Source: Ignavibacteriae bacterium HGW-Ignavibacteriae-2 (GTDB taxonomy: Bacteria; Bacteroidota; Ignavibacteria; Ignavibacteriales; Melioribacteraceae). From it: a stretch of DNA of 37,277 nt. Both the position numbers and the translations under genes were made by a program. Position 1 is the first letter of the stretch; each line of letters opens with the position of its first letter. This document shows, piece by piece, positions 14,989 through 35,172 of this stretch. Below the pieces are notes generated by a model, which saw nothing but the letters and a program-made list of their open reading frames with translations, did not search any database and was not told where the DNA came from. The DNA lies in contig PGYT01000004.1 of NCBI GenBank assembly GCA_002839805.1, positions 1 through 37,277 of the forward strand, in the 5' to 3' direction.

Positions 14989-16152
14989 TTAATCAGAACC
15001 AAACACCTTAGAATAGATGAGTGCGGTAGCTCCCATTGCCCCGCTGAACTCTCTAAATTCAGAAAAAGAAAACGGAATATTTTTGGTAATTTCAGAAATA
15101 AGATAATAATTAATTTGTTCTTCCAATACAGGTTTAATTATCATTTCAGCCTCACAAATATCGCCTCCAATCACTATAACTTCGGGATCCAACAAATTTA
15201 CCAACTGAGCCAAATGTTTACTTATTTCTTTCGCAATTTCTCCCAGAATATAAGTCCCTGTTTTACTCCCCTGCTCAGCATATTTTAAAACCGATTTCAA
15301 ATTATGATGATCTTTATTCTGATTTAATTCGATTACAAGTTTATCATTGGGCTCTTTTTTAGTAATTGTTTTCAATATTTTTAGCCAAACGGCATCGGTA
15401 ATAAATAATTTTAATTCCCCCGCTGCATTTCGGGCTCCGCGATAAATTCGATCATTAAAGATATACCCAATTCCCATACCTGAAAATTTTTGATGTATAC
15501 TAACGTAAAGAATATGTTTTTTATCCTGAAATTGAGGCTGCAGCCATTTTACTCCCAATGCCCCGGCATTAGCGTCATTATCAATTTCAAATAAAAACGG
15601 TATTTCATTTTCAAGCATTTTTTTTAGAGGGATTTTATGAAAACCAAAAGGATATGAAAATAGAATTTTGCCATTCTTGTTATCTATAGATCCCGGCATC
15701 CCGATTCCTATTCCTAAAATCTTTCCTTTATTCAATATTTGTTTAGAAAGAAGTGTGTTTATAATGTTTTTAATCTTGATAACAAGTTCTTCAGGATTTT
15801 TAATTCTTTTATGAGGAAATATATTTTTATATAAACATTCTCGCGAAAAATTCAGAACAACAAGCCTGATCTCCGTTGAAAACAATTCAATACCGATCAC
15901 ATTTCCATAACTATTCTGTATTCCCCAAAGGACAGGAGGCTTGCCGCCTAATGATGTTGTATTTCCAAAACCCAAATTCTTTATAAACCCATCTTGTTCT
16001 AAAGATTTTAGAGTATAAAGAACGGTGGACATTTGTAAACCAGTAAGATTACTAATTTCTCTGGCAGTTACGGAGTTTGACAATCTCACTAAATTTAAAA
16101 CATGATTTTTATTTAAATTTCGTATTAAACGTGTACTACCACTTTTGTACAT
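14989..16152 (-). CDS. ROK-family transcriptional regulator lacking the zinc motif
   Basis: This 387-residue protein has an N-terminal winged helix-turn-helix (about residues 15-70: VTAREISNLTGLQMSTVLYT, then LEQDGFIKNLG) followed by an ROK sugar-kinase-like domain with GIGIGMPGSID, EIDNDANAGALG and the C-terminal LLDPEVIVIGGDI. The canonical zinc-binding block of the family (His followed by CxCGxxGC) is missing: after the conserved AGE the sequence reads LKLFITDAVW with no cysteines. I infer a repressor whose ligand is probably not a standard hexose. It is the last gene of the corrinoid operon, five bases after the methyltransferase, and so likely controls it through the inverted repeat at 19524. 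Confidence 0.88.
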   Translation of the reverse strand: MYKSGSTRLIRNLNKNHVLNLVRLSNSVTAREISNLTGLQMSTVLYTLKSLEQDGFIKNLGFGNTTSLGGKPPVLWGIQNSYGNVIGIELFSTEIRLVVLNFSRECLYKNIFPHKRIKNPEELVIKIKNIINTLLSKQILNKGKILGIGIGMPGSIDNKNGKILFSYPFGFHKIPLKKMLENEIPFLFEIDNDANAGALGVKWLQPQFQDKKHILYVSIHQKFSGMGIGYIFNDRIYRGARNAAGELKLFITDAVWLKILKTITKKEPNDKLVIELNQNKDHHNLKSVLKYAEQGSKTGTYILGEIAKEISKHLAQLVNLLDPEVIVIGGDICEAEMIIKPVLEEQINYYLISEITKNIPFSFSEFREFSGAMGATALIYSKVFGSD

Positions 16153-16157
16153 AAAAC

Positions 16158-17183
16158 TTATAATACTCCGAATTCTTTAGCCGCTTTATTCATTGCAATG
16201 TAATTTTCGACATTTACATATGCTGGAATACTATTGCTTGAACCAACACAGTAACCTCCATTGAAAGCTGCCACATCAATATTTTTTCTCACAATTTGCC
16301 TTATATCTTCGGGTTTGCCACGTGATAAAATATCAACATCCACATGACCGATTAAACATAATTTATCCCCAACAGTCTTCTTAACTTTATCTAGTTCCAT
16401 TGCTTTGGGTTCCAATGGATGGATCGCATCTACACCACAACTTATTATCCTCTCAAATACTTCAAAGAGGACTCCGTCGGAATGATAAATAAGCGGTTTG
16501 TTATATTTTTTTGCGAGCTCCCCAATTTTTTTTAGCCACTTGAAAAGATATTTATCCAATATCTCAGGCGGCATTAAAAGTCCGTTTGTAAAAGCTATGT
16601 CGTCACTATACCATAATACATCAACAGAAGGATGCTGTGCCATAACCTCAAACATACTTAAAACTAATTCACCTAATTTGTCGTTAAGTAAATCAATCAA
16701 ATCCGGATTTTCGAACAATGCGAATGAAAATTTTTCGAATCCCATCATTTCCCAGGTCATGGTAAAAATGTCGCCGTATTGCCCAACTACTCCCATTCCT
16801 TCAGGGAGATATTTATTAATAGAGTCAAATTTCCAATAATTAAAATCAGCAGCAGATGGGAAAATATATTTCTCATAATCATTTAACGAAGTTATTATTC
16901 CATCTCCTTCGTGGGCCCAGTTAAAATTTGATACCGAATCTACTTTTTCTTCTGATGATAATGACTTGCCAATATTACCGGGATTAAAATCCACTTCAGG
17001 GGCGAGCTTCAAATAATCGTATCCCATTTTATTCCAAAACTCAACATCATCCTTAAGATTCATTATAGGACGTCCTATTATTTTTTCTTTGATCTTCGGA
17101 TGCACACCAAGTTCGGCTACTGGAACATAAGAGGATTTTCCTCTTCTAATCGTTTTGATAAATTCATCAATATTCGGCGACAT
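16158..17183 (-). CDS. UroD-superfamily corrinoid methyltransferase
   Basis: This 341-residue protein has the uroporphyrinogen decarboxylase fold as used by MtaA/MtbA-type and related methyltransferases, not heme synthesis. Likely zinc ligands are H234 in LIYHSDG and C312 in GGYCVGSSNSIP, with D236 beside the first. HPLEP and LIGHVDVDILSRG follow the pattern of the methyltransferase branch. It should move a methyl group to or from the corrinoid protein encoded in the same operon. Whether it takes the methyl from the growth substrate or passes it on to a thiol acceptor cannot be told. It starts three bases after the reactivation gene. Confidence 0.85.
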   Translation of the reverse strand: MSPNIDEFIKTIRRGKSSYVPVAELGVHPKIKEKIIGRPIMNLKDDVEFWNKMGYDYLKLAPEVDFNPGNIGKSLSSEEKVDSVSNFNWAHEGDGIITSLNDYEKYIFPSAADFNYWKFDSINKYLPEGMGVVGQYGDIFTMTWEMMGFEKFSFALFENPDLIDLLNDKLGELVLSMFEVMAQHPSVDVLWYSDDIAFTNGLLMPPEILDKYLFKWLKKIGELAKKYNKPLIYHSDGVLFEVFERIISCGVDAIHPLEPKAMELDKVKKTVGDKLCLIGHVDVDILSRGKPEDIRQIVRKNIDVAAFNGGYCVGSSNSIPAYVNVENYIAMNKAAKEFGVL

Positions 17184-17186
17184 ATT

Positions 17187-17900
17187 TTATTCCAAATTTT
17201 TATCTTTTCTTCGTTTATAACAATGCTCCAGATTACAAATGTTGCATTGATAATCTAATTTTCTGACTTCTCTACCGGCCGCAATAATACCGCTTATTGA
17301 TTTAATAGGTTTCATTAGGGCGGATTCATTTAATTTAATACCACAAAAATTATCTGGTAGCAAAGCAAAAATTTTATGTTGTTCTTCCACATTCCAATTG
17401 CAATAACCCGGACTAAGCCTGTTTGAACATTTCCAGTCAATACCCTCGAATTTTGCGACAAGAAAATTCTCGAGCCAGTCACAAGCCGATTCAACAATCT
17501 CGGACCCTATTGTATCGGCTATATAACCATAAAGCTGTTCGTTTGCATTAAACTGAGATGCTATCCACTTATCGAATTTTTCGCCCGCGCTCGCGGCAAA
17601 AACAATAATCGATTCTGCGCCTTTTAAGTGATTCGCTATAATTTTTCCCACATTAAATGTATATCCGCTTATTGATACAGTTGATCTTGTTAATTGAATT
17701 TGTTCCGCAGAATATTCTGCAAATCCCACTTTCAAATCAGCGTTTTTGTCGGCCAATTTGAGAAATTCTGCGGTAGCTGTAATAATATACTCGGGGGCAA
17801 CATCATCGTAATACCCCATGCCGCATAAAATCCTTTTTTCAGTAATTCCAAGATCACTCATTAATAAATTATATGTTTGAACGTTCATAGAAGCGATCAT
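17187..17900 (-). CDS. Stand-alone MetH-type reactivation domain (AdoMet-binding)
   Basis: This 237-residue protein matches the C-terminal activation domain of cobalamin-dependent methionine synthase. The AdoMet-binding motif RxxxGY is intact at R161-Y166 (SNRLSPGYCNW), followed by GIKLNESALMKPIKSISGI, the typical SMxPxxSVSG segment. A short C-terminal tail has C-x2-C-x4-C (CNICNLEHC), which could hold a metal or cluster. The expected role is reductive remethylation of oxidised cob(II)alamin on the partner corrinoid protein using AdoMet. It sits two bases after the PhyH-like gene. No catalytic MetH domains are present, so it serves another methyltransferase system. Confidence 0.85.
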   Translation of the reverse strand: MIASMNVQTYNLLMSDLGITEKRILCGMGYYDDVAPEYIITATAEFLKLADKNADLKVGFAEYSAEQIQLTRSTVSISGYTFNVGKIIANHLKGAESIIVFAASAGEKFDKWIASQFNANEQLYGYIADTIGSEIVESACDWLENFLVAKFEGIDWKCSNRLSPGYCNWNVEEQHKIFALLPDNFCGIKLNESALMKPIKSISGIIAAGREVRKLDYQCNICNLEHCYKRRKDKNLE

Positions 17901-17902
17901 TT

Positions 17903-18754
17903 TTAAACCAAAAGAGGAGTATAAATTGTATTAATTAAATCACCGTGTTTTAATTCAGAGCAAGATTTATGTGTAGCATTCCTGGCGTCGGTAGAATCAA
18001 ATCGATTTCCGTCAGCAAAATAAATTACAGTCATACCTTCACGCATTTCTTTTGTTTTATTTTCCAGAGCTCCATGATAGGTTAAACCGGTATGGAAAGT
18101 AACATCCCCGGCTTCTAGAGGTGCAATAACTGTTTTTCCGGTATTCAAAAAATCAGGTTTGTGAGGATTATTAAAAATATCAATGTATTCCCTTGGCAGT
18201 TTATGAGAACCAGGATAAAAATATAAACAACCTTTTTCTTCAGGTACTTCATTAAGTGCCATCCACATTGTTGTCGTTAATTCCGGCTGTTTTATGGGCC
18301 AATAACTGCTATCCTGATGAACATCCGTTTTTCTTCCACCCGCTTCTTTAAATAGAGCCTGGTCGTGCCATAATCTTACACCATCTACTTTCATTAAATC
18401 CCTGGCAATTCCAGCAAAAAGCTTTCCAAATACATAATCTTTAACGGCGGGAAAATTCCAGCATAAAAACCCACATTGTAAAAAACTTTGTTGATAAGGG
18501 GTTTTGTCCTTTAAGGATCGTTCGTCATCTTTTTTTTGTATTAGAACGGCAGATTGAATTAATTTACGAGTATAAGCCAGAGCGGAACCTGATAAAACAC
18601 CCTTTATTATAATGAATCCATTATTTTTGTAAAACTGCATTTGTTCTTGGGATAATAAATAAGTTTCGTTGTATTGTTTCAATATATTTGAAGGTGTAAT
18701 TCCATTTAGCATTGACTGTGCTTCTATCGTTGTAAGCCCATCTATTTTAACCAT
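17903..18754 (-). CDS. PhyH-type Fe(II)/2-oxoglutarate dioxygenase
   Basis: The open frame extends to 18823, but I place the start at 18754 because AAGGA lies seven bases upstream and the longer frame would run deep into the corrinoid gene. The 283-residue product has the phytanoyl-CoA dioxygenase fold: the iron ligands H146 and D148 in VHQDSSYW, the distal H227 in LTYHGALENK, and R238 as likely 2-oxoglutarate anchor. GCLYFYPGSHKLPREY is typical of the family. It should hydroxylate, or oxidatively demethylate, a small substrate using O2. It is embedded between corrinoid genes with spacings of 13 and two bases, an unexpected pairing of an O2-dependent with an O2-sensitive system. Confidence 0.85.
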   Translation of the reverse strand: MVKIDGLTTIEAQSMLNGITPSNILKQYNETYLLSQEQMQFYKNNGFIIIKGVLSGSALAYTRKLIQSAVLIQKKDDERSLKDKTPYQQSFLQCGFLCWNFPAVKDYVFGKLFAGIARDLMKVDGVRLWHDQALFKEAGGRKTDVHQDSSYWPIKQPELTTTMWMALNEVPEEKGCLYFYPGSHKLPREYIDIFNNPHKPDFLNTGKTVIAPLEAGDVTFHTGLTYHGALENKTKEMREGMTVIYFADGNRFDSTDARNATHKSCSELKHGDLINTIYTPLLV

Positions 18755-18767
18755 ATAAAATCCTTGA

Positions 18768-19421
18768 TTAGTTGATATATTTTGTAAGACTATGAGGATC
18801 GGCGAAATATTTATCAGCCCCAATTTTTAAGGCGAATTCTTCGGAAAGAGGAGCCCCTCCAACAAATACTTTTATGGACTCATTAAATTTTTTAATTTCC
18901 CGAACGGTTTCTTCCATATTCAACATTGTGGTGGTTAATAAAGCGCTTAAACCAACAATACAATTTTCGGTTTTATTCAAATTTTCCAAAAATAGTTCGG
19001 TTTTAACATTTACTCCTAAATCTATTACTTTCCAGCCGTCCCCTTCCATTACCATTTTAACAATGTTCTTACCAATATCGTGTAAGTCCCCAGCTACAGT
19101 TCCAATTAGCATAGTACCTTTATGTTTAGCTTCGCCGGATTCAAAAAATGGTTTAAGATGTTCCATTGCCGCGTACATTGCTTTAGCACTTATTAATAGA
19201 TTTGGGATAAAAGCTTTACCGGTAGAAAATTTTTCACCGATCCTGTTCATTCCTGTCATGAGTCCTTTTTTTAAAATATCATCGGGGGAAATTCCTTGTG
19301 ATAATGCAATTGCAGTTAATTCCGAAGCTCCGTCGGAACCAACTAAATGCGGAGGATGCTTAAACTCTTTATTCGATTTTCCATATTCTATGCACTCAGA
19401 AAGTTTTTCCAATATTTCCAT
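18768..19421 (-). CDS. Methyltransferase corrinoid protein (B12-binding)
   Basis: This 217-residue protein belongs to the MtaC/MtbC/MttC type. Residues 1-90 form the helical cap (B12-binding 1: LMTGMNRIGEKFSTGKAFIP and ISAKAMYAAME). Residues about 100-217 form the Rossmann-like cobalamin domain, with the DxHxxG signature at D112, H114 and G117 (GDLHDIGKNI), LSALLTTTM, and VGGAPL. H114 should be the lower cobalt ligand. It carries the methyl group between methyltransferases. It is the first gene of the operon, preceded by a 168-base region with two palindromes, and only a weak ribosome binding site (CGGATAAC) is visible. Confidence 0.93.
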   Translation of the reverse strand: MEILEKLSECIEYGKSNKEFKHPPHLVGSDGASELTAIALSQGISPDDILKKGLMTGMNRIGEKFSTGKAFIPNLLISAKAMYAAMEHLKPFFESGEAKHKGTMLIGTVAGDLHDIGKNIVKMVMEGDGWKVIDLGVNVKTELFLENLNKTENCIVGLSALLTTTMLNMEETVREIKKFNESIKVFVGGAPLSEEFALKIGADKYFADPHSLTKYIN

Positions 19422-19523: not shown

Positions 19524-19550
19524 AGGTTTATTCAATAGTTGAAATAACCT
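19524..19550. promoter_or_regulatory. Candidate operator of the corrinoid/ROK operon
   Basis: AGGTTTATTCAA-TAG-TTGAAATAACCT is a 27-base inverted repeat with 10 of 12 positions matching between arms, about 100 bases upstream of the first operon gene. On the minus strand its proximal half contains TTGAAT, followed 17 bases later by TATTTT, a possible -35/-10 pair overlapped by the repeat. The size and symmetry suit a dimeric winged-helix repressor, most simply the ROK protein at the end of the operon. The regulator assignment is inference. Confidence 0.5.
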
Positions 19551-19589: not shown

Positions 19590-21845
19590 TTATTTTTTAT
19601 AAAGCGCTAAAAGAACTTTTTCAGGAGTTAATGGTGCGCTAATCTGATAATGTACATTTGGGTTAAAAGCTCTCATCGCATTCAATAAAGCGAAGTATGT
19701 GCCAATGCCATACATCAGGGGTGGTTCTCCGATAGCTTTTGATTTTAGAGGCCCGAATGGATTTTCTGAATTCTTGAGGAAATGAATATTAATTTCTCTC
19801 GGAGCTGAATATATATCTGGAATTTTATATGTAGATAATGAATTCGAAAGCAAATCGCCGGAATCTGAATATTTTATTTCTTCCAAAGTCATCCAGCCTA
19901 TACCCTGAAGCAAACCGCCCTCAACCTGTCCTACATCAACATTATGATGCAAACTTTTACCATAGTCATGAACAATTGAAACCGATTCCACCTGATATCT
20001 GCCCAGTATACAATCCAATTCAACTACAGTTGCGGCAGTGCCGTACACGTGGTAAGCGAATGGCCGACCTTTATTTATTGTTCTGTCGAAATATATTTGA
20101 GGCGTAGCATAAAACGCGTGTGAACTAAGATTAATTCTTTTCATATAACTTTTATTGACAAGTAATTCCCAAGAAAGATCTGTTTTGATGTCCTTATTAT
20201 AAATCCAGTCTTCTTTAATAGAGATTGATGAATAATCATTTAATGATAATTCTTCTGCGGCTGATTTTTTTAATCTTTCCAGAATATTCTTACAAGCAAT
20301 CAATGCTGCGTTACCATTCAAGTCTGCCCCACTGCTGGCTGCTGTTGCAGAAGTGTTGGCAATCCGGGTTGTGTTTGTGGACTCTATCCTTATTTTGTCG
20401 GAATTTATGGAGAATGTTTGAGAAACTATTGAAATGATTTTCGCGTTTACACCCTGCCCCATTTCAATGGCCGCGGTACTAACACCTACACTGCCGTCGG
20501 AGTATACATGTATTAAGGCGCTGGCTTGATTTAGGAAAGTACTAGTAAATGATATTCCGAAACAAACAGGCATATATGCAATGCCCCTTTTGGTAATTTT
20601 GTTATCTTCATTAAATTTATGGACTTCGGATTCCATTTTTTCAAAACTATATATTTCATCGGCGTAATTCCAGCATTTACGCGCATTTACGTTCTCAGCA
20701 ATTTGACCATAATGAAATTCGTCGCCTTCATCTAATAAATTATTTTTTTGAATTAATTTAACGGGAATTCCAGATATTACTGAAGCATTGTATATAGCCG
20801 ATTCCATTACAAACATAGCCTGAGGGCCGCCGAATCCTCTGAAGGCTGTGTTTGGCGGAATATTAGTTTTACACGAAATGCCTGTTGCCAAAATATTTGG
20901 GATATGATAACTGTTTGCAACATGAAATAACGTACGTTCCAGAATAGCAGGTGAAAGATCGGCACAAGCTCCGGCATCCTGAAAATATGTAACTTGAAAC
21001 GCCAATATTTTTCCGTCGTCTGTTAATCCTATTTTATAATCAGATGAGTACGGATGCCGTTTTCCTGTGACGCGTAGATCCTGCAATCTTGAAAGAACCA
21101 ATTTTACAGGTCGCTTTGTTTTTTTTGCTGCTAATGCGGCTAATACAGCCCAATGTGTAGCTTGATCTTCTTTACCGCCAAAACCCCCTCCAAGACGGAG
21201 AACGTCAACCTCAATTTTATTCATCGGCAAATTCAATACTTTAGCTGCTGTCCTCTGAACAACAGTTGGTCCTTGCGTGGATGAATATATTTTTATTGAG
21301 TCCGATTCTTTGGGTACTGCCAGCGCACACTGCGTTTCCAGATAAAGATGTTCCTGTCCACCCGATTCTACGGTTCCTTCTGCAATGAAGGAGCACTCTT
21401 TCCATGCATTTTCAACATTTCCATTCTGAAATATTACAGGAGGTTTTATCAGTAATTTTTTTGAAAAAGCCTCCCGCGGATCCAAAACAACAGGCAGCTT
21501 TTCAAACTCAATACTTATTCTTTTTGCGATAAGTTTTGCGTTTCTTGCAGAATCGGCAACTATAACTGCAATAGGCTCGCCAATAAAATGCACCTCTTTT
21601 TCAGCCAGCAGAACTTCATCATGGATAATGCCACCAACCTGATTTTCACCTTCAATATCATGCCACGTTAATACATCAATGAATCCTTCAGCACTTTTTA
21701 TATCACCAAAATCTATAGATTTTATTATACCATGAGCAATTGGTGAATCAAGAACATAAGCATATAAAGTTCCTGCTGGTTCCGGTATATCATCCACAAA
21801 TAAAGATTCACCTTTTACGTGTTTTTCCAGATCAGCATTTTTCAT
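19590..21845 (-). CDS. xdhB: Xanthine dehydrogenase molybdenum-binding subunit
   Basis: This 751-residue large subunit of the xanthine dehydrogenase family holds the molybdopterin active site. Residues matching the purine-specific enzyme are present: Glu in LGGGFGGKEDQ, Arg in TAFRGFGGPQAM and the catalytic Glu in KAIGEPPLMYGIG; the moco loop GMGQ appears as IEMGQGVNAK. The substrate is therefore most likely hypoxanthine/xanthine. The start overlaps the stop of xdhA by four bases. The length suits a split bacterial XDH. No XdhC-type sulfuration factor is in the window, so maturation must come from elsewhere. It is the last gene before the corrinoid operon. Confidence 0.93.
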   Translation of the reverse strand: MKNADLEKHVKGESLFVDDIPEPAGTLYAYVLDSPIAHGIIKSIDFGDIKSAEGFIDVLTWHDIEGENQVGGIIHDEVLLAEKEVHFIGEPIAVIVADSARNAKLIAKRISIEFEKLPVVLDPREAFSKKLLIKPPVIFQNGNVENAWKECSFIAEGTVESGGQEHLYLETQCALAVPKESDSIKIYSSTQGPTVVQRTAAKVLNLPMNKIEVDVLRLGGGFGGKEDQATHWAVLAALAAKKTKRPVKLVLSRLQDLRVTGKRHPYSSDYKIGLTDDGKILAFQVTYFQDAGACADLSPAILERTLFHVANSYHIPNILATGISCKTNIPPNTAFRGFGGPQAMFVMESAIYNASVISGIPVKLIQKNNLLDEGDEFHYGQIAENVNARKCWNYADEIYSFEKMESEVHKFNEDNKITKRGIAYMPVCFGISFTSTFLNQASALIHVYSDGSVGVSTAAIEMGQGVNAKIISIVSQTFSINSDKIRIESTNTTRIANTSATAASSGADLNGNAALIACKNILERLKKSAAEELSLNDYSSISIKEDWIYNKDIKTDLSWELLVNKSYMKRINLSSHAFYATPQIYFDRTINKGRPFAYHVYGTAATVVELDCILGRYQVESVSIVHDYGKSLHHNVDVGQVEGGLLQGIGWMTLEEIKYSDSGDLLSNSLSTYKIPDIYSAPREINIHFLKNSENPFGPLKSKAIGEPPLMYGIGTYFALLNAMRAFNPNVHYQISAPLTPEKVLLALYKK

Positions 21846-23260
21846 TTTAACACCTCATGACTAATAAGTTCTGGAAAGAGAGTTATAAAGTGCTTTTTAA
21901 TTATCTGCGAAACCAACAACCTCTTATATTGGACGCTTCCCCGAATATCGGTAATTGGAGAAATTTCCGACTGAGCTATACTAATTATTTCAATAACAAG
22001 AGAAGTGTCTATTTCCTTATCTACTAAATATTCCGATGTTTTTTTAAGATACAAAGGCACCGGAGCCACTCCGCCGAAGGAAAGAGAAGCGCTGAATATT
22101 TTTTTGTTTTTATATACTAAATTTATGGCTGAGTTTACGGTAGCAATATCCAGGTGTGTCCGTTTCGATACTTTTTCAAAATTAAACTTATTATTCTCTC
22201 CAGGAATTTTAAATCTAATTTCTGATACCAATTCGTCGATCGATCTATCCAAACTTTTATATCCTTTGTATAGATCCTTAAGAAAAACTTTCCTCCTCGA
22301 TTTACCTTTTGTAAGCACTACCCTTGAGTCCAAAGCTAAAAGTATAATCGACATATCTCCGATTGGTGAAGCGTTAATTATATTACCAGCCAGCGTTGCA
22401 GTATTCCTAATAGGTAAAGAAGCTATCAACTTCATATAGTCATTTATTTGAGGCAAATATGTTTTAATTAAACTGGATTGATTAAACTCTTCGAAGGTGA
22501 TGGAACCGCTTATTTTGACTTCATTTTTACTAAGAGTAATTTCACTACGGTTTTTTTTGCCGACAAATAAAATGTTCTTATCCAATAAGGAATCGGCCTG
22601 CTGAACATATAGATCGGTGCCGCCGCCAATAATTTTTTCGTAATTCGTTTTTTCCCGAATAGGATTAGGATTATCAATTAGCGATAATGCTCTGTGTATA
22701 TTTTTAAAATACTCAGGTATTATTTTTAAACGTATCAAGGAATCTATATCTGGGTCGCCTACTGAACGGTTAGCTGCAATATAATCCAACATTTTAGCAA
22801 CTGATCGTTTAATTGATAAGTAACCTGTGCATCTGCAAATATTTCCGCCAATAGCATCTATTGCGGTATCAATATCATATTCTTTATTCGAAAGAAAATA
22901 AGTGGTTAGCGATATTATAAAACCAGGTGTACAAAATCCGCATTGGCTTGCGCTTTCGTCAATAATGTATTTTTGGATTGGAGTAAATCCGTTTTGATTT
23001 AATCCCTCGATTGTAACAACATGTTTACCTTCAACATTACCCAAAGGATAGAGGCAGGAGTTCACTGTTTTATATAATATTTCTCCATTAATCAACTCTC
23101 CCAAAACTATTGCGCATGCCCCGCAATCTCCTTCCTTACAAACTTCTTTTGTCCCGGTTAATCTTTTTTCTTTTCTTAAAAAATCCAGCAGTACTAAACC
23201 TTTAAAAGCTGTTGTCGAAACGGGTTTATCGTTTAGAATAAAATTAATTTGCTCTTTCAT
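21842..23260 (-). CDS. xdhA: Xanthine dehydrogenase small subunit (2Fe-2S / FAD)
   Basis: A 472-residue electron-transfer subunit. Residues 1-160 carry two 2Fe-2S clusters: C41, C46, C49 and C69 (plant-ferredoxin type, CKEGDCGAC) and C107, C110, C142 and C144 (CGFC and CRC). Residues about 200-470 form the FAD domain, with IIGGGTDLYV, the flavin loop LPIRNTATLAGNIINASPIGD and SLSFGGVAPVPLYLK. It passes electrons from the molybdenum subunit to NAD+ or another acceptor. It starts about 115 bases after the threonine-synthase-like gene, so it may have its own promoter; an inverted repeat lies in that gap. Confidence 0.94.
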   Translation of the reverse strand: MKEQINFILNDKPVSTTAFKGLVLLDFLRKEKRLTGTKEVCKEGDCGACAIVLGELINGEILYKTVNSCLYPLGNVEGKHVVTIEGLNQNGFTPIQKYIIDESASQCGFCTPGFIISLTTYFLSNKEYDIDTAIDAIGGNICRCTGYLSIKRSVAKMLDYIAANRSVGDPDIDSLIRLKIIPEYFKNIHRALSLIDNPNPIREKTNYEKIIGGGTDLYVQQADSLLDKNILFVGKKNRSEITLSKNEVKISGSITFEEFNQSSLIKTYLPQINDYMKLIASLPIRNTATLAGNIINASPIGDMSIILLALDSRVVLTKGKSRRKVFLKDLYKGYKSLDRSIDELVSEIRFKIPGENNKFNFEKVSKRTHLDIATVNSAINLVYKNKKIFSASLSFGGVAPVPLYLKKTSEYLVDKEIDTSLVIEIISIAQSEISPITDIRGSVQYKRLLVSQIIKKHFITLFPELISHEVLK

Positions 23261-23349
23261 TCAGTGAACCTCAAATTTTCAGTTCCATTTGGGAGATAGC
23301 AATTCCAACTTAAACAAAAAACATTATCGGGTCAATTTCCCAATTATTA

Positions 23350-23367
23350 AATGGTAAAATTACCATT
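23350..23367. repeat. 18-base inverted repeat upstream of xdhA
   Basis: AATGGTAA-AA-TTACCATT has perfect eight-base arms around a two-base centre. It lies 90 bases before the xdhA start and seven bases after the preceding stop. The tight centre and lack of a following T-run argue against a terminator. It looks like a binding site for a dimeric regulator of xanthine dehydrogenase, with the binder unknown. Confidence 0.45.
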
Positions 23368-23374
23368 ATCATTT

Positions 23375-24631
23375 TTATGTGAAATTTACGGCATTATTAC
23401 CTTCAGCAAAATATTTTTCCCACTGAGCGACCGTTTTTATTTCCGGAGTTTTATTCCAGAGAGTAAGACTATTAAAATCTTTTAATCCGTTACCGGTAAC
23501 AATTAGCATTGCATTGTTTGTATAAATATCTAAATCATTTACGCTCATTAAAATATAAGCGGCAAATACCGAAGCCGATGAGGGCTCGCACAAAATTCCA
23601 TATTTACGCGAAAGCATTTTTTGCGCTTCAATAATCTCATCATCTTTAACCGCAATTGCGGTACCTCCGGTTTTTTTTATTACATCTGTAGCTAAATAAA
23701 GATTTCTTGGAGCCGCAGCATCAATGCTGTCAGCGATCGTGTTTGTTTTAATGAACTCATATTTATTATTTTTTAGATATCTTACTAAAGCGTTACTGCC
23801 TTCTGATTGAACGCCTATAAGTTTGGGTATTTTTTCTATTAAACCAACTCGATGCAAATCATAAAATCCTTTGTAAAGCCCGGCAATTATAACTCCATCA
23901 CCAACTGGTACAAATAATGAATCAGGTATATTCCCTTTAGTTAGAATAAAGATATCAAACGCAGCTGATTTCTTACCTTCTATGGTCATAGGATTAAAAG
24001 CCGTATTTCTGTTGTACCATTTCATTTTATCCGATACAGACATGCATAGATCAAACGCGTCATCATAGGTTCCTTTAACAACATATAACTCAGCGCCATA
24101 AGCTTGAATTTGAATCCGTTTTGGCGCGGGAATTTTTTCGGGGACGAATAATTTACTTTTTAGTCCAAGTATAGCACTTATACCCGCAAGGGACGACCCT
24201 GCGTTTCCTGTAGATGCAGCCGATATTTCAGTTATTCCCAATTCAATAGCTTTTAAACATACGAGGAATGATGCCCGATCTTTAAAGGACAGTGTGGGAT
24301 TCAATGTATCGTTAAAAACTGAAATTTGTCTATTATCAAAAATAATATTTTGCAATGTAGGATTTAATTTAATGCTGTTTTTAATTACCGTGGATTTAAT
24401 TGGGAGTAAAACACTGTATGATCTGTAATCGCCGGCAAGAGAGGTTAAAAATTTTTTTGATGATATTTTTCTTTTAATCAACTCATAATTGTATTCAACT
24501 TCCAATACACCCTTAAGCGGTTTGTTTCTTTCGGCCAAACCGCATTTAGGGCAAATGTAAATTAAGTTCTTCTCAATATAATCGGCGTAATGTTCGACTC
24601 CGCAATCAAAACATCTATATAAATAGTTCAT
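23375..24631 (-). CDS. Threonine-synthase-like PLP enzyme in the YgeX position
   Basis: This 418-residue fold-type II PLP enzyme has an N-terminal zinc ribbon (CFDCG and CPKCG, residues 8-34) and the threonine synthase signature LNPTLSFKDRA with the Schiff-base lysine, ASTGNAGSSLAG for the PLP phosphate, and FVPVGDG. Near the C-terminus CEPSSASVFAAY fits the same family. By sequence it would be called threonine synthase. By location, seven bases after ygeW in a ygeY-ygeW-x order, it occupies the place of ygeX (2,3-diaminopropionate ammonia-lyase) in known purine clusters. I infer a beta-elimination or ammonia-lyase role on a catabolic amino acid, without proof. Confidence 0.82.
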   Translation of the reverse strand: MNYLYRCFDCGVEHYADYIEKNLIYICPKCGLAERNKPLKGVLEVEYNYELIKRKISSKKFLTSLAGDYRSYSVLLPIKSTVIKNSIKLNPTLQNIIFDNRQISVFNDTLNPTLSFKDRASFLVCLKAIELGITEISAASTGNAGSSLAGISAILGLKSKLFVPEKIPAPKRIQIQAYGAELYVVKGTYDDAFDLCMSVSDKMKWYNRNTAFNPMTIEGKKSAAFDIFILTKGNIPDSLFVPVGDGVIIAGLYKGFYDLHRVGLIEKIPKLIGVQSEGSNALVRYLKNNKYEFIKTNTIADSIDAAAPRNLYLATDVIKKTGGTAIAVKDDEIIEAQKMLSRKYGILCEPSSASVFAAYILMSVNDLDIYTNNAMLIVTGNGLKDFNSLTLWNKTPEIKTVAQWEKYFAEGNNAVNFT

Positions 24632-24638
24632 TAAAGCC

Positions 24639-25649
24639 CTACATTGTTAAAGACATTATTGCTTTAGCTGTGTGTAAACGGTTTTCGGCTTCGTCAAAAA
24701 CGATAGAAATATTTTCATTATCGATTATTTCATCGGTTACTTCGTGACCTCTGTCCGCCGGCAATGCATGCATAAGTTTAACATTTTCATCAGCGAGTTT
24801 AATCCGTCTGTCGTCACAAATCCAATCGTGATATTTTTCAAGATTCACTTTCATTTCTTTTTTGCATTGATCTTCGTTCTGTAAATAATCCTGAACATCG
24901 TAGTACCCGAACCCACCCCAATTTTTTGGAATAACTATGTTAGCGCCCTCAAAAGCTTCGTCCATATCATTAGTAAATTTTAAAGATCCCCCGCCAATCT
25001 CTGCGTTTTTTTGAGCCTTATCGATAATTGATTGTGACAATGGGAATTCTTTTGGATTGGCGACAGTAACGTCTATTCCGTATCTCGGGAAAAGTAATAT
25101 TTGTGTTTGTGGAACTGAAAGAGGTTTGCTGTGCGTATCTGCATAAGCCCACGAAATTGTTACTTTTAAACCTTTCGGATTTTTATCGAAGTGTTCGAAG
25201 ACTGTCATAAGATCCGCCAGCCCTTGAAAAGGATGATAAATATCGTCCTGAAGCGACATAACGGGTTTTTGGGAGTGTTTAGCCATTTCATTCAGATATT
25301 CGGCCCCAATTCCGTAAAAACAATTTCGCGAGGCTATTCCGTGTCCCATTCGTGATAGTATAATGGCTGTGTCCTTAGCCGATTCACCATGCGATAACTG
25401 CATTTTATCAGATGTAAGGTCATGGGCGTGTCCACCCAATTGAGTCATACCGGCTTCCATTGAATTTCGTGTTCTTGTAGATTGTTCAAAAAATATCATA
25501 AACAAAGTTTTGTGGGGCAAATAAAGATGGGGTTCCTCTTTATAAAAATTATCCTTTAATTCGAAAGCTCTGTTAAAAACAACATCTAACTCATCCTTGC
25601 TCCAGTCCTCGCAAGTTAAAAAGTGTTTCCCTTTAAGATTTTTAGACAT
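24639..25649 (-). CDS. ygeW: YgeW-type knotted transcarbamylase
   Basis: This 336-residue aspartate/ornithine transcarbamylase-fold protein has the carbamoyl-phosphate loop FFEQSTRTRNSMEAG, the HPFQGLADLMTV segment, and a C-terminal MHALPADRGHEVTDE (HxLPADR-like loop). The SMEAG variant, KMQLSHGESAKDT and the DADRGHE-like end are those of YgeW rather than ArgF or PyrB. The substrate is unsettled in the family. In the purine cluster it is thought to release carbamoyl phosphate from a ureido intermediate for ATP formation. It is about 60 residues shorter at the N-terminus than E. coli YgeW. It lies 15 bases after ygeY. Confidence 0.88.
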   Translation of the reverse strand: MSKNLKGKHFLTCEDWSKDELDVVFNRAFELKDNFYKEEPHLYLPHKTLFMIFFEQSTRTRNSMEAGMTQLGGHAHDLTSDKMQLSHGESAKDTAIILSRMGHGIASRNCFYGIGAEYLNEMAKHSQKPVMSLQDDIYHPFQGLADLMTVFEHFDKNPKGLKVTISWAYADTHSKPLSVPQTQILLFPRYGIDVTVANPKEFPLSQSIIDKAQKNAEIGGGSLKFTNDMDEAFEGANIVIPKNWGGFGYYDVQDYLQNEDQCKKEMKVNLEKYHDWICDDRRIKLADENVKLMHALPADRGHEVTDEIIDNENISIVFDEAENRLHTAKAIMSLTM

Positions 25650-25664
25650 ATTTATAACTCCAGA

Positions 25665-26849
25665 TTAATAATGTAAACAATATTGTGCGTAAAAAGCTGC
25701 GGCTTTTACCAAATGTTCTACAGGAACTTTTTCATTTGGTGAATGTGCCATTTTTTCCTCTCCGGGTCCGAAACCAATAATCGGTATATTATGCATGCCA
25801 TTTATCGCTATACCGTTGGTGGAAAATGTCCATTTATCCACTAAAGGCTCCGAGTTAAACAATTTTTTATAACAATCGATACCTTTAGCGATAACCGGAT
25901 GAGATTCTTCAATTACCCATGTTGGAAAATATTTTTTCATACCGTATTCTTTTCCAGTAAAAGTTGTAATTTTATAATCGAGTGTGCGCACTTGCGCATC
26001 ATAATCCTTTAGTAATTCATTAATTTGTGACAATGCCAATTCCTCATTTTCACCCCATGTCAATCTTCGGTCCAGATGAAAACGAGCGTAATCGGAAACT
26101 GCGCATAACGAAGGGCTATCAGATTTAAACTCGGTTACGGCAATTGTTCCTTTGCCTAAAAAATTATCAACTTTTAATCTTTCATTCAACTCCTCAATTT
26201 TTAAAGCAACACGTGATCCCATATATATAGCATTTTTTCCCCTTTCCGGGGCGGATCCATGAGAGGAAATACCTTTGAAAACAACTTCCATTTCCATCCG
26301 GCCTCTTTGCCCTCTATAAATATTAAGATCGGTTGGTTCGGTAATAATAACGCACTCTGGTTTAATTCCCTCCTCTTCAATTATATATTTCCAGCAAAGC
26401 CCGTCACAATCTTCTTCAATTATAGATCCAGTAAAATAAACTGAAAGATCATTTGGAAGACCAATTTCCTTCATAATTTTGCCAGCGCTAATAAATGAGG
26501 CTACACCACTCTTTTGATCAACAGTACCTCTCCCGAAAACATAGCCGTTTTTAATTTCACCGCCAAAAGGATCAAACTCCCAGTTCGATATGTTCCCTGC
26601 GTCAACGGTATCGACGTGCCCGTCAATTGCTATAACTTTAGGACCATTTCCGATTTTGCCAATTACATTTCCCAAGCCGTCAATCCGGGCCTCATCAAAT
26701 CCGGCTTCGAGCATCATCTTTTTGATAAGTTTAACTACGTTTTCTTCCTGATTACTTAATGACTTGGTTTTAATTAATTCCGATAAATTATTTGCTGTAT
26801 AATCGGAATATTTTTTTGATAACTGATAAATTTCATTGGGAGTAGTCAT
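25665..26849 (-). CDS. ygeY: YgeY-type M20 family metallohydrolase
   Basis: This 394-residue M20 peptidase/deacylase has the metal motifs DGHVDTVDAG, GRGTVDQKSGVASF, the catalytic EEDCDG pair and a C-terminal histidine in KMAHSPNEKVP. The dimerisation lid is between about residues 195 and 300. The M20 family removes acyl or carbamoyl groups from amino acids. In the purine cluster YgeY is expected to hydrolyse an acylated or ureido diamino acid before YgeW and the PLP enzyme act. It is the first gene of its transcription unit, divergent from ygfK. Confidence 0.87.
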   Translation of the reverse strand: MTTPNEIYQLSKKYSDYTANNLSELIKTKSLSNQEENVVKLIKKMMLEAGFDEARIDGLGNVIGKIGNGPKVIAIDGHVDTVDAGNISNWEFDPFGGEIKNGYVFGRGTVDQKSGVASFISAGKIMKEIGLPNDLSVYFTGSIIEEDCDGLCWKYIIEEEGIKPECVIITEPTDLNIYRGQRGRMEMEVVFKGISSHGSAPERGKNAIYMGSRVALKIEELNERLKVDNFLGKGTIAVTEFKSDSPSLCAVSDYARFHLDRRLTWGENEELALSQINELLKDYDAQVRTLDYKITTFTGKEYGMKKYFPTWVIEESHPVIAKGIDCYKKLFNSEPLVDKWTFSTNGIAINGMHNIPIIGFGPGEEKMAHSPNEKVPVEHLVKAAAFYAQYCLHY

Positions 26850-26952
26850 GTAATTTTAACCCCATTATTGTTCTGAATTTTTAAATTAATTTCTGAAGAT
26901 GAACGGTCGGTACAATAGATAATATAGAAGTCCATAATATTCCGAATTGCAA

Positions 26953-26975
26953 TTTTGTATTTTAAAAATACAAAA
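26953..26975. promoter_or_regulatory. Inverted repeat in the ygeY/ygfK divergent promoter region
   Basis: TTTTGTATTTT-A-AAAATACAAAA is an inverted repeat with perfect 11-base arms and a one-base centre, in the roughly 180 bases between the divergent ygeY and ygfK starts. A terminator makes no sense between divergent genes, so a shared operator controlling both arms of the purine locus is the simplest reading. It is AT-rich, which lowers its significance. No regulator gene for this locus is in the window. Confidence 0.45.
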
Positions 26976-27030
26976 AAAATGTCTTAATTAATACGGCGAT
27001 ATCTTTTATAAATTTTTATTGAGTTATTCT

Positions 27031-30000
27031 ATGTCAGATAAAATGAAACCTCTTACTATTTCTCAATTATTGAATTGGATACTAATCGAATATCACAAAT
27101 ACAATTCAATTTTTGGAATATCAAAAGAAAACTTTTATTTCCATACTTCCAAAAATAATTTGAAAATATTCGGGAGAGGAATCGATTCTCAGCTAGGACC
27201 TGCCGCTGGTCCGCATACTCAACTTGCCCAAAATATAATTGCTTCTTATCTAACCGGAGGAAGGTTTGTTGAGTTAAAAACCGTACAAATTCTCGATGAG
27301 CTCGAAATTAAAAAACCTTGCATTGATGCCGGTGACGAATGTTATAACATTGAATGGTCGCAGGAATTACTGCTTGACCAATCATATGAAGAGTATGTTA
27401 AAGCCTGGGTATTGATTCATGTTATAAAAAAATTATTCAAACTTTCTGATTCGGCTGAAAGTGGTTTTATTTTTAATATGAGTGTGGGTTACAATCTTGA
27501 AGGAATTAAATCAAATAAAATAAACTCATTTATTGAAAATATGATTGATGCCGATAAATCCCCGATATTTAACAAATTAATTGATCAGGTAAAAAAGATT
27601 TTATCGGACAATTACTTATCAAAAGTTATAAATGAATTGAATCCTGATTTAATTGATATTGACGGTTTATTAAAATCGATACCGTATAATATTAGCGATT
27701 CAATGACGCTTTCCACAATGCATGGTTGCCCGCCTTCCGAAATTGAAGCCATAATAAAATATCTCCTCGAAGAAAAAAAACTTAATACCTTCGTAAAACT
27801 TAATCCTACACTTCTCGGGTACGATTTTGTAAATAATGTTCTTACTTCTTTGGGTTATACTTATCTATCTGTGCCGGAAAAAGTATTCGAAAAAGACATG
27901 AAAATGGATGCCGCAATCCCAATGATAAAACGGCTTCAGCAATGCGCTGTATCTAATAATCTTAATTTTGGGGTAAAACTTTCCAATACACTTCCTGTGG
28001 ATAACAGTAGACCAAATCTCAATGAAGATGAAATGTATATGTCCGGAAGATCACTTTTCCCAATAACAATTAATCTGGCGTTGAAACTTTCCACTGAATT
28101 TAATGGAAAATTGAATATATCTTATTCCGGAGGCGCTTGTTCTCATAATATAAAAGAATTGGCTGAGTGCGGTTTCTTTCCGATTACAATTGCGACTGAT
28201 CTACTTAAACCGGGCGGTTATGGCAGACTAAAACAAATGAATGATATTTTAACTGACATTCCACTTGCTGGCAAAGTAGATATTGAGAAACTGAAAAAAT
28301 TGGCTCTTATGTCTTTTGAAGATCCCGAATATAAAAAAGATAAACGCCAAATAGGCAGTATAAAAATTCCTAAATCTTTACCTCTATTTGATTGCTACAT
28401 TGCGCCATGCCGCGAAGCCTGTCCTATAGGTCAGGATGTGCCCGAATACATTAGTCTTGTTAAACAAGAAAGATATAAAGAAGCGCTTGAGATAATTACA
28501 GCTCGGAATCCACTACCTCATATAACGGGATATATTTGCGATCATCAGTGCATGGAACATTGCACTCGATGGGATTACGATAACCCTGTTTTAATAAGGG
28601 ACATAAAAAAAGAAGCCGCAATAAAAGGGTTTGATGAATTTATAAACTCGTACAATTTTCCAGAAAATAAAAATAAAGTATCATCGCCTGTCGCAATAAT
28701 CGGCGCCGGACCCGCGGGACTTGCAGCAGCGTATTTTCTTAGCCGCAAAGGTTTTGAAGTGACCGTTTTTGAAAAAGAAAATAACGCCGGCGGAATTGTG
28801 AGAAATGTAATTCCATTATTCAGACTTCCGGCAGAAGCTATTGATAAGGACATTAAATTTATAGAAAAACATGGCGTGCGCTTTGTCTTTGGTTTTGATT
28901 ATAATTTTTCTTTAACAGATCTTAAAAAAGAGGGTTTCCAATATATTTTAATAGCAATAGGGGCCGGACTTTCCAATCGAATGGAACTTAATGACTGGAA
29001 CGACAACGTAATAGACGCGATAGATTTCCTATGGGAATATCATCATCGAAATACTTACGAACTGGGCAAAAATGTAGCCGTCATTGGCGGCGGCAATTCC
29101 GCAATGGATGGCGCTAGGGCCGCAAAAAAATGTAAAGAAGTAGAAAATGTTTATTTGATTTACAGGCGTACGAAAGAGTTCATGCCGGCTGATATGGAAG
29201 AATTTTATGCCGCCCTTGAAGATGGTGTTGTATATAAAGAATTGCTACAGCCGATTAGTTTTTCTGAAGGGTTATTAAAATGTCAAAAAATGATACTCGG
29301 GGAATTGGACACCGATGGTCGACGAAAAGCCATACCGGTTGAAAACAATTTCGTCGAAATAAAAGTTGACACTGTTATTTCCGCAATTGGAGAACACGCC
29401 GATTTTAATTTGCTGGAATCTAATAAGATCAGAGTAGAAAACAACAAAACGTTTGTTAATAACTCTAACTATGAAACAAATATTAAAAATGTATTTGTAT
29501 GCGGAGATGCCTCAAAAGGTCCCGACACAGTGGTTCAAGCGATAGCTGATGCCAGAAAAGTGACAGATGAGATTCTTTCTCGAGAGAATATGCTATTACC
29601 AGAAACTGTAGATTTTATATCAGAAATTGAAAATTTGAATGTGAAAAAATCTTTTGTTAAAAACAGTCTTCCAACAAATTTTATTGAGGAAGCCGATAGA
29701 TGTTTAATGTGCAGTTACGAATGCAATAAGTGTATTGACGTTTGTCCGAACCGGGCAAATGTAGCCGTAAAGATTTCTTCGAATGGATTCAAAGATTCAC
29801 ATCAAATTGTTCATATTGACGATTTATGCAACGAATGCGGTAATTGCTCAACCTTCTGTCCATATCAGGGGAATCCATATAAAGAAAAGTTCACATACTT
29901 CTCTAATGAAAAAGATTTTCAAGAAAGCAATAATCCGGGATTTGTTAAGATCACTTCTCCCGACGGGGGGAAATCCTATAAGATTCGCCTTGATGGGAAA

Positions 30001-30108
30001 ATAATATCCTTAAATTCAATAAATCAGATTAACTTGGAAGAGGTTCCAAAAGATTGTGTAAAAGTTATAGAACAGCTAGAAAAGGGATATTCGTTTTTAA
30101 TGCTATAA
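27031..30108 (+). CDS. ygfK: YgfK-type flavin/iron-sulfur oxidoreductase
   Basis: A 1025-residue protein aligned by memory along its length with E. coli YgfK (putative selenate reductase subunit). The N-terminal barrel has GPAAGPHTQLAQNI, STMHGCPP and VKLNPTLLGY. A GltD-like module follows at about 455-860: the cluster cysteines CYIAPCREACPIGQD and CDHQCMEHC, the FAD loop VAIIGAGPAGLAAAYF, the NAD(P) loop VAVIGGGNSAMDGARAAKKC. Two C-terminal 4Fe-4S motifs end it (CSYECNKCIDVCP and CNECGNCSTFCP). It is thought to shuttle electrons for the XdhD-type hydroxylase. I use the ATG at 27031 rather than the TTG at 27019, matching E. coli. It is the only rightward gene of the locus. Confidence 0.93.
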   Translation: MSDKMKPLTISQLLNWILIEYHKYNSIFGISKENFYFHTSKNNLKIFGRGIDSQLGPAAGPHTQLAQNIIASYLTGGRFVELKTVQILDELEIKKPCIDAGDECYNIEWSQELLLDQSYEEYVKAWVLIHVIKKLFKLSDSAESGFIFNMSVGYNLEGIKSNKINSFIENMIDADKSPIFNKLIDQVKKILSDNYLSKVINELNPDLIDIDGLLKSIPYNISDSMTLSTMHGCPPSEIEAIIKYLLEEKKLNTFVKLNPTLLGYDFVNNVLTSLGYTYLSVPEKVFEKDMKMDAAIPMIKRLQQCAVSNNLNFGVKLSNTLPVDNSRPNLNEDEMYMSGRSLFPITINLALKLSTEFNGKLNISYSGGACSHNIKELAECGFFPITIATDLLKPGGYGRLKQMNDILTDIPLAGKVDIEKLKKLALMSFEDPEYKKDKRQIGSIKIPKSLPLFDCYIAPCREACPIGQDVPEYISLVKQERYKEALEIITARNPLPHITGYICDHQCMEHCTRWDYDNPVLIRDIKKEAAIKGFDEFINSYNFPENKNKVSSPVAIIGAGPAGLAAAYFLSRKGFEVTVFEKENNAGGIVRNVIPLFRLPAEAIDKDIKFIEKHGVRFVFGFDYNFSLTDLKKEGFQYILIAIGAGLSNRMELNDWNDNVIDAIDFLWEYHHRNTYELGKNVAVIGGGNSAMDGARAAKKCKEVENVYLIYRRTKEFMPADMEEFYAALEDGVVYKELLQPISFSEGLLKCQKMILGELDTDGRRKAIPVENNFVEIKVDTVISAIGEHADFNLLESNKIRVENNKTFVNNSNYETNIKNVFVCGDASKGPDTVVQAIADARKVTDEILSRENMLLPETVDFISEIENLNVKKSFVKNSLPTNFIEEADRCLMCSYECNKCIDVCPNRANVAVKISSNGFKDSHQIVHIDDLCNECGNCSTFCPYQGNPYKEKFTYFSNEKDFQESNNPGFVKITSPDGGKSYKIRLDGKIISLNSINQINLEEVPKDCVKVIEQLEKGYSFLML

Positions 30109-30112
30109 TAAT

Positions 30113-30589
30113 TCAGCTGTCATTTAATTCTTTTACAGCGGAGTGAACGGCATCAATTATCGGTTTGTAACCTGTGCAACGGCAGAGGTTACCTTCTATT
30201 GCTTCTTTTATTTCTTCAATTCCCGGATTATTATTTTTAAGTAATAACGCGTATGCGGACATGGCCATACCAGGCGTACAAAAACCACATTGTATTGCGC
30301 CTTTATCAATAAATTGTTTTTGCAGTTCATGCAGCTTGCCGTCTTTCTCTAATCCTTCGATTGTTATAATCTCGGATCCTCCGCATTGGCCGATTAAAAT
30401 TAAGCATGAGTTAACCGCTTCCCCATCCAATACTACAGTACAGGCGCCACATTCCCCTATTGAACAACCTTCCTTCGTACCAGTAAGCAAAAAATTCTCG
30501 CGCAATACGTCCAAAAGTCTTTTTGACTGCTCAACAAATATTTTTTTAGCAGTACCGTTTATGTTTAGTTCTATATCACTTTTCATCAT
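30113..30589 (-). CDS. Molybdenum hydroxylase 2Fe-2S subunit
   Basis: This 158-residue two-cluster ferredoxin-like subunit has cysteines in CSIGECGACTVVLDGEAVNSC (first 2Fe-2S), IQCGFCTPG and NLCRCTGY (second 2Fe-2S). It links the molybdenum active site to the FAD subunit. The second ATG (30586), six bases after GGA, may be the real start. It overlaps the FAD subunit gene by 11-14 bases. Its stop is four bases from the stop of the convergent ygfK, with no terminator between them. Confidence 0.93.
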   Translation of the reverse strand: MMKSDIELNINGTAKKIFVEQSKRLLDVLRENFLLTGTKEGCSIGECGACTVVLDGEAVNSCLILIGQCGGSEIITIEGLEKDGKLHELQKQFIDKGAIQCGFCTPGMAMSAYALLLKNNNPGIEEIKEAIEGNLCRCTGYKPIIDAVHSAVKELNDS

Positions 30590-35160: not shown

Positions 35161-35172
35161 CCATACCTAATA

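Follow-up and report, generated by a model that had tools for sequence, protein, structure and literature searches.

In this study, we analysed a stretch of 37,277 nucleotides from Ignavibacteriae bacterium HGW-Ignavibacteriae-2 (assembly GCA_002839805.1, contig PGYT01000004.1, positions 1 to 37,277; hereafter the window). We found a five-gene operon at 14989-19421 whose content tentatively points to a methionine synthase that is fed by demethylation and does not depend on folate; the operon would supply its donor half, with an oxygenase as an accessory. We put the chances of this reading a little short of even. The operon encodes a methyltransferase-type corrinoid carrier (CORR), a PhyH-type Fe(II)/2-oxoglutarate oxygenase (PhyH), a stand-alone MetH-type reactivation domain (MSAD), a UroD-superfamily methyltransferase (UroD1) and a ROK-family transcriptional regulator (ROK). 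All reactions of the operon, its substrate class and the role of PhyH are predicted here from gene content. Each part belongs to a known family, and the combination appears to be new. An earlier note on this DNA knew of no described system of this composition, and within the open-licence PMC papers that we searched this still holds, as none described this gene set.

The genes all lie on the minus strand. CORR comes first (18768..19421, 217 amino acids (aa); PF02310 and PF02607), followed by PhyH (17903..18754, 283 aa; PF05721, 100.6 bits), MSAD (17187..17900, 237 aa; PF02965, 35.5 bits), UroD1 (16158..17183, 341 aa; PF01208, 75.6 bits) and ROK (14989..16152, 387 aa; PF00480, 125.8 bits), with gaps of 13, 2, 3 and 5 bases between them. 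The Pfam matches to each family and the gaps of 2-13 bases bear out the five tightly packed genes of the earlier note. A xanthine dehydrogenase gene lies 168 bases upstream of CORR. The window comes from contig C52 in a 4.16 Mb genome (G000) of 99.92% completeness, and its relatives, judged from named PhyH loci, belong to the Melioribacteraceae/Ignavibacteriota. We compared it with further genomes (G numbers) and loci (L numbers), in which genes were called mechanically as the longest open frames and named after their top BLAST hit in a small reference set; Pfam was applied to a minority of the neighbour genes. The order CORR-PhyH-MSAD-UroD-ROK is repeated in L152, and the same order without ROK occurs in L161, so the arrangement is more than chance.

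UroD1 is probably the donor-side (MT-I) enzyme. It has the UroD/MtaA fold (model predicted local distance difference test score, pLDDT, 85.8), and its model matches the MtaA-type structure 4ay7 with Z 28.1 and a root-mean-square deviation of 3.2 over 310 residues, and UroD 3cyv with Z 29.9. The sequence had no match in the PDB at E 0.01; no entry among the best 50 of Foldseek/VIA was described as an O-demethylase, which has no bearing on membership. A duplicate of HemE was ruled out: the canonical hemE is on contig C21 (461 bits), UroD1 differs at the compared motifs, and the host genome holds only one UroD-family protein besides hemE. The earlier note remarked that no familiar substrate-specific methyltransferase (MttB, MtaB or MtgB type) is present. 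This leaves no gap, because in several O-demethylases and dehalogenases the donor-side enzyme is itself a UroD-superfamily protein (PMC10418091, PMC13222342; here and below, comparisons with published systems refer to the available portions of the cited papers).

The metal site of UroD1 bears on the kind of methyl group. Thiol-type enzymes of the UroD superfamily have a His-Cys-Cys zinc site, and in O-type enzymes Cys is replaced by a carboxylate or a non-coordinating residue (Kountz and Balskus, PMC10418091). We found that H234-x-D236 and N317 of UroD1 are invariant in 12 rows, in place of His-x-Cys...Cys. Because this His/Asp/Asn site is of the O-type and not of the thiol type, an O-methyl substrate is favoured over an S- or Se-methyl one. 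Two other UroD families of the system, U2 and U6, keep His-Cys-Cys, and therefore not all of its UroD families are O-type. The motif E-X14-E-X20-H, which we take to be a zinc motif of acetogen O-demethylases, occurs in none of the 15 UroD rows.

The same residues argue against an S-/Se-methyl system of the type 1 mlp kind, which we consider very improbable. Type 1 mlp clusters (PMC10418091) combine UroD-family and corrinoid proteins without a folate transferase, as here, and the window adds a 'selenium-linked' YgfK/SsnA/YgeY cluster next door. However, those clusters are tied to methyl-selenide and methyl-sulfur chemistry and have their own His-Cys-Cys sites, in at least two Mlps, together with a Ram protein that is part of their definition. 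The operon has one UroD protein, of the His-Asp-Asn kind, with no His-Cys-Cys site in 12 of 12 rows, and the host genome has no RamA match.

The carrier and its reactivation partner were assigned in the same way. CORR matches the Pfam families B12-binding (86.1 bits) and B12-binding_2 (62.4 bits). Its best NCBIfam match is MtgC-type, under the cut-off, and its closest solved structure is 1y80 (E 3.5e-44). It is the only match in the genome besides MetH at E 1e-10. The match of MSAD to Met_synt_B12 covers profile positions 125-264 of 273 only. MSAD aligned across RxSPGY to the stand-alone MetH activation domain 1j6r (E 2.7e-9), labelled 'methionine synthase' and presumably a Thermotoga maritima protein, with which it has the fold family and this motif in common. 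MSAD also has a C-terminal CxxCx4C, and the alignment with 1j6r stops before that tail. The three cysteines (C219/C222/C227) are invariant in 16 of 16 aligned rows, as is RxSPGYC, and CxxCx4C may bind a metal or an Fe-S cluster.

UroD1 occurs with MSAD in eight of ten genomes (chance 9.8e-10, uncorrected for kinship); these ten are from 14 matched genomes, the other four being left out with matches of only 29-31% identity. RamA (RACo_C_ter) had no match in the host genome and none in 14 of the 16 genomes searched. The two RamA-bearing genomes are G014, which has no MSAD match, and G093, with a weak one, and both carry RamA within 2 kb of a homocysteine methyltransferase (HcyMT) and CORR. On this distribution, MSAD fits the role of the usual reactivase of the system. 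Both genomes tested behind PhyH loci that are not adjacent to CORR (L155, L160) have this MSAD type elsewhere.

The enzyme that accepts the methyl group from CORR is likely an HcyMT encoded in trans. We found CORR, MSAD and an HcyMT (~295 aa, PF02574) clustered in 12 loci (L024, L026, L081, L082, L140, L141, L143, L144, L146-L149). Within the stretches read, ten of these loci also have a UroD-family gene, L081 and L082 being the exceptions. CORR stands with HcyMT and no MSAD beside it in L076, L119 and L120, and L151 holds a looser set. The host orthologue is solitary on contig C62. It is 50-58% identical to nine HcyMTs beside CORR, 40-41% identical to those of L119/L120, and it retains the zinc-ligand motif NC...GGCCGT; one MetH frame was end-trimmed for this alignment. 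Pterin_bind gave two matches in each of 12 genomes, one from MetH, which G014 and G212 show as short frames, and the other in a frame of 288-409 aa taken as FolP. We therefore found no stand-alone pterin-binding methyl-folate:corrinoid transferase in these 12 genomes, the MtrH type (PF02007) being outside the search.

The combination of UroD protein, carrier, MetH-type reactivase and HcyMT differs in at least one feature from each of the acetogen O-demethylases, the type 1 mlp clusters and split methionine synthase. With the three-component O-demethylases and dehalogenases (MtvB/OdmB/VdmB/CdmB; PMC13222342, PMC10418091), the operon has the carrier, reactivation and, as predicted, the UroD-superfamily donor in common. 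Those systems also include a methyl-folate transferase and an activase, whereas our searches gave no Pterin_bind-type transferase and no RamA/RACE activase; the operon instead has PhyH as a partner and hosts with oxidase-family genes. The three-part methionine synthase of Phaeobacter inhibens (PMC5764234) has a separate PF02574 homocysteine methyltransferase, a corrinoid protein and separate reactivation, as here, the HcyMT with its zinc ligands being encoded in trans in our case. It differs in that its own pterin-binding protein brings the methyl group from folate; here none was found by the Pterin_bind search, a UroD-type protein is present instead, and reactivation would be by a MetH-type domain. 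MesA-D (PMC7857596) pass a methyl group to homocysteine without folate, as proposed here, and MesD needs an O2-dependent partner. However, MesA-D are MetE-like; the acceptor here is of the MetH/BHMT-like kind (PF02574) and is accompanied by a carrier and a UroD protein.

The substrate class of UroD1 is probably an O-methyl sugar, since the operon has a ROK regulator, L161 has a Pgi-like neighbour and sister UroD families lie in sugar loci. Plant and algal polymers commonly contain O-methyl sugars, 4-O-methylglucuronic acid among them; the open-licence literature searched gave no corrinoid route for such sugars. In L161, CORR starts a few bases after a glucose-6-phosphate-isomerase-like gene (570 bits, cut-off 712). 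The sister family UroD3 was found in xylan/glucuronate loci in all eight genomes with at least 59% identity, the query included (eight of 11 matches). GH115 lies within 10 kb of UroD3 in five of the eight (G051, G184, G329 and G393 by Pfam; G014 at 42% identity), and the other three (G039, G255, G373) have UxuA within ~10 kb, that of G039 judged from sequence similarity alone. In five of the eight (L076, L141, L144, L146, L147), UroD3 shares its cluster with CORR. GH115 enzymes free (4-O-methyl)glucuronate from xylan, and 4-O-methylglucuronate is the likely substrate of UroD3 via a corrinoid route.

At the level of single loci, UroD3 stands with GH115 alpha-glucuronidase, or with GH43 and UxuA, in L076, L141, L144, L146 and L234, also in L147, L232 and L233, several of them with CORR, HcyMT and MSAD. 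In L143 and L145, members of the UroD7/8 families accompany genes for RbsD, ribokinase or a lyxose-isomerase-like protein. We also observed CORR, MSAD and UroD-family genes together in L139, L143, L145 and L079, with an RbsD-like gene in the last three and ribokinase and lyxose-isomerase-like genes in some. Perhaps these sets serve O-methyl ribose or some other O-methyl pentose. A distant PhyH (27%) is present in L145 as well.

ROK has the two parts that define ROK regulators, the ROK domain and an N-terminal winged helix, the latter (HTH_24, 20.8 bits) just below its cut-off of 21.9. ROK is kept in L152, L154 and L022. The ROK of L022, from a same-genus relative, is only 38% identical to that of the window, while the other shared genes are mostly 53-85% identical, which suggests a different effector. 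Upstream of CORR we found a putative ROK operator, the palindrome GTTATT-N10-AATAAAC (19526..19548, minus strand). A similar palindrome with N11 lies upstream of CORR in L152 and L154, both ROK-bearing; there was one further match, in the flanking stretch L086. L161 and L162, which showed no ROK gene, gave no match. The palindrome is expected ~0.2 times per 37 kb on both strands, a post hoc test because the motif was first picked by eye from the same sequences. No Rfam riboswitch matched at the gathering score in the window, L152, L154, L157, L161, L162 or L165.

The oxygenase has the signature residues of its family. The mechanical open frame opens at TTG 18823 inside CORR, and homologues favour ATG 18754, which is probably the start. 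Across 17 aligned rows, H146, D148, H221, H227 and R238 do not vary. They supply the HxD...H iron site and the 2-oxoglutarate-binding Arg of PhyH Fe/2-oxoglutarate oxygenases; we take H146, D148 and H221/H227 to be the iron site and R238 the 2-oxoglutarate-binding residue. The model (pLDDT 93.5) gave SnoK and SnoN as top Foldseek matches, and these two best solved matches presumably act on sugar units. PF00115, a family that covers terminal oxidases and also nitric oxide reductases, was matched in 16 of 16 genomes tested, so O2 use by these cells is plausible beside Co(I) chemistry.

Orthologues of PhyH (54-62% identity) were found in six of 395 phylum genomes, including the window's own (six genomes at 54% or more among 32 matches), and in 16 loci of a named-genome collection (16 of the best 80 of 114 loci, the 17th at 40%). 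The collection may omit the records nearest to the window's genome. Together with the window and G232 this gave a set of 18 loci, in which L153, L162, L166 and L167 were taken as G062, G349, G031 and G220 and each was counted once. PhyH lies directly beside CORR in six of the 18: the window, L152 and L161 with CORR-PhyH-MSAD-UroD1, L154 with CORR-PhyH-UroD6-type-UroD1-ROK, L162 with CORR-PhyH-UroD1, and L157 with UroD5-CORR-PhyH, an MtaB-like gene (two frames, by eye) and MSAD. It is one gene away in three more. L165 reads CORR-MtaB-PhyH-MSAD (MtaB 495 bits), and in L166 and L167 PhyH faces UroD2, followed by CORR and HcyMT. No CORR stands beside PhyH in the remaining nine (L158, L159, L160, L163, L164, G232, L153, L155, L156). 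Two of these, L156 (3.7 kb) and L158 (6 kb), are not long enough to reveal the neighbouring genes but were counted as not adjacent all the same. In L153 and L155, PhyH is beside a gene for a Golvesin/fn3 protein, and G062 (L153) has a CORR-MSAD-HcyMT cluster ~10 kb from PhyH.

PhyH is thus a recurrent but optional partner of CORR. Its tree, for which two PhyH frames were end-trimmed before alignment, needs three changes for the corrinoid link and is compatible with one origin. UroD1 (ten genomes) and PhyH (six) co-occur in four of 395 genomes (hypergeometric 3e-6, uncorrected for kinship). The earlier note's corrinoid methyl-transfer operon containing a dioxygenase stood. Its refuting case, a dioxygenase not conserved in homologous operons, was half borne out: PhyH is kept in five of the eight loci where UroD1 sits with CORR, and in five of the 13 UroD1 loci seen. 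Since PhyH occurs near the carrier alongside several donor enzymes (UroD1, UroD2, UroD5, MtaB), its pattern would suit an accessory enzyme or one that acts broadly on the substrate pool.

The earlier note suggested, as one possibility, aerobic and anaerobic routes for the same methylated compound. In such a dual route, PhyH (with O2, formaldehyde being lost) and UroD1/CORR (without O2, the methyl group being kept) would take off the same methyl group. The nine of 18 loci where PhyH is beside or one gene from CORR, with several methyltransferase types, agree with this, as do the PF00115 matches in every genome tested and the presumed sugar units of SnoK and SnoN. However, a single PhyH subfamily recurs with UroD1, UroD2, UroD5 and MtaB, whose expected substrates differ, and PhyH also occurs with no corrinoid gene nearby and is unlinked to UroD1 in some genomes. 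PhyH is missing from G051, from G128 (a UroD1 genome outside the 32 PhyH-matched genomes) and from the G232 cluster (L026). On balance we find this proposal rather unlikely. Alternatively, PhyH may hydroxylate or epimerise either what demethylation leaves behind or a different part of the compound. This agrees with SnoN, an epimerase, and SnoK, a carbocyclase, as the best structural matches and with UroD1 lacking PhyH in several genomes. But PhyH tracks the carrier more than any single methyltransferase, and we hold work in series to be doubtful too.

The other side of the operon is a purine cluster. At 19590-37277 we found YgfK (1339 bits) and a YgeY hydrolase (519 bits) along with two sets of xanthine-dehydrogenase-like genes; SsnA- and YgeW-like proteins are also encoded, with scores short of their cut-offs. 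We take this cluster to resemble the anaerobic purine-degradation clusters of gut bacteria. A threonine-synthase-like PALP protein is encoded within it (23375-24631). The xanthine dehydrogenase genes that adjoin the operon in the window and in L152 speak for demethylation of methylated purines coupled to this cluster. In L161, however, the operon lies between the same flanking genes in the same order, with a Pgi-like gene upstream and GDH and his genes downstream, and the purine cluster is missing. We also recognised no purine genes next to UroD1 in any other stretch inspected. The adjacency is therefore probably incidental, by later insertion or by loss in L161. The L161 comparison ruled out a purine link as the leading explanation, and we regard it as highly improbable.

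Several observations weigh against the demethylation-fed methionine synthase that we prefer. No gene of the operon names a substrate, and the sugar is assigned to UroD1 by analogy with UroD3, its own loci giving only ROK and the Pgi-like neighbour in L161. C312 of UroD1 is kept in 11 of 12 rows and is a possible thiol ligand outside the motif reading. UroD1 is apart from CORR in L021, L027 and L028, is 9 kb away in L023 and lies at a contig end in L025. HcyMT is absent from the operon, a full MetH is present in the same genome, and the search for folate transferases covered the Pterin_bind type. G031, G220 and G396 (behind L154) have CORR, UroD proteins and PhyH but gave neither MSAD nor RamA in these searches, which leaves them with no recognised reactivase. 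In G093 the weak MSAD match lies next to RamA, so neither is a plain substitute for the other. In six Ignavibacterium-group loci, L158, L159, L160, L163, L164 and G232 (L118), the neighbour of PhyH is an amidase/NamZ-like gene, checked by Pfam in G232 alone, and the stretch seen holds no corrinoid gene. The same-genus genome G051 has CORR-MSAD-UroD1-ROK without PhyH on a contig that begins just before CORR, and no PhyH match was found anywhere in that genome.

Under the methionine synthase reading, a methylated compound, probably an O-methyl sugar, would lift ROK repression. The His/Asp/Asn site of UroD1 would bind the methoxy oxygen, and the methyl group would pass to Co(I) on CORR. The trans-encoded HcyMT would then make methionine by methylating homocysteine from methyl-Co(III)-CORR. 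Upon oxidation of Co(I), MSAD would bind S-adenosylmethionine and drive reductive remethylation, perhaps with electrons passing via its Cys motif. Read from gene content, these four steps form a consistent chain. The weakest step is the last, in which PhyH would act as an O2-dependent accessory on the same methylated-sugar pool, either by oxidative methyl removal in the presence of O2 or at a position beyond the corrinoid route.

A wider picture, which we judge unlikely, is a facultative cell with two demethylases of opposite chemistry for a single pool of sugar methyl ethers: it would use the corrinoid route without O2, sending the methyl group directly to methionine, and PhyH with O2, both under one sugar-responsive regulator. 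The corrinoid part would belong to a wider, undescribed 'methyl-ether-to-methionine' family with UroD proteins tuned to different O-methyl sugars, including 4-O-methylglucuronate from xylan. If the methionine synthase reading is true, methyl groups of polysaccharides would feed methionine while bypassing folate, and MSAD would be a reactivase variant that serves corrinoid enzymes in cells able to meet O2. The operon would then offer a directly testable case of O2-dependent and O2-sensitive enzymes sharing one operon.

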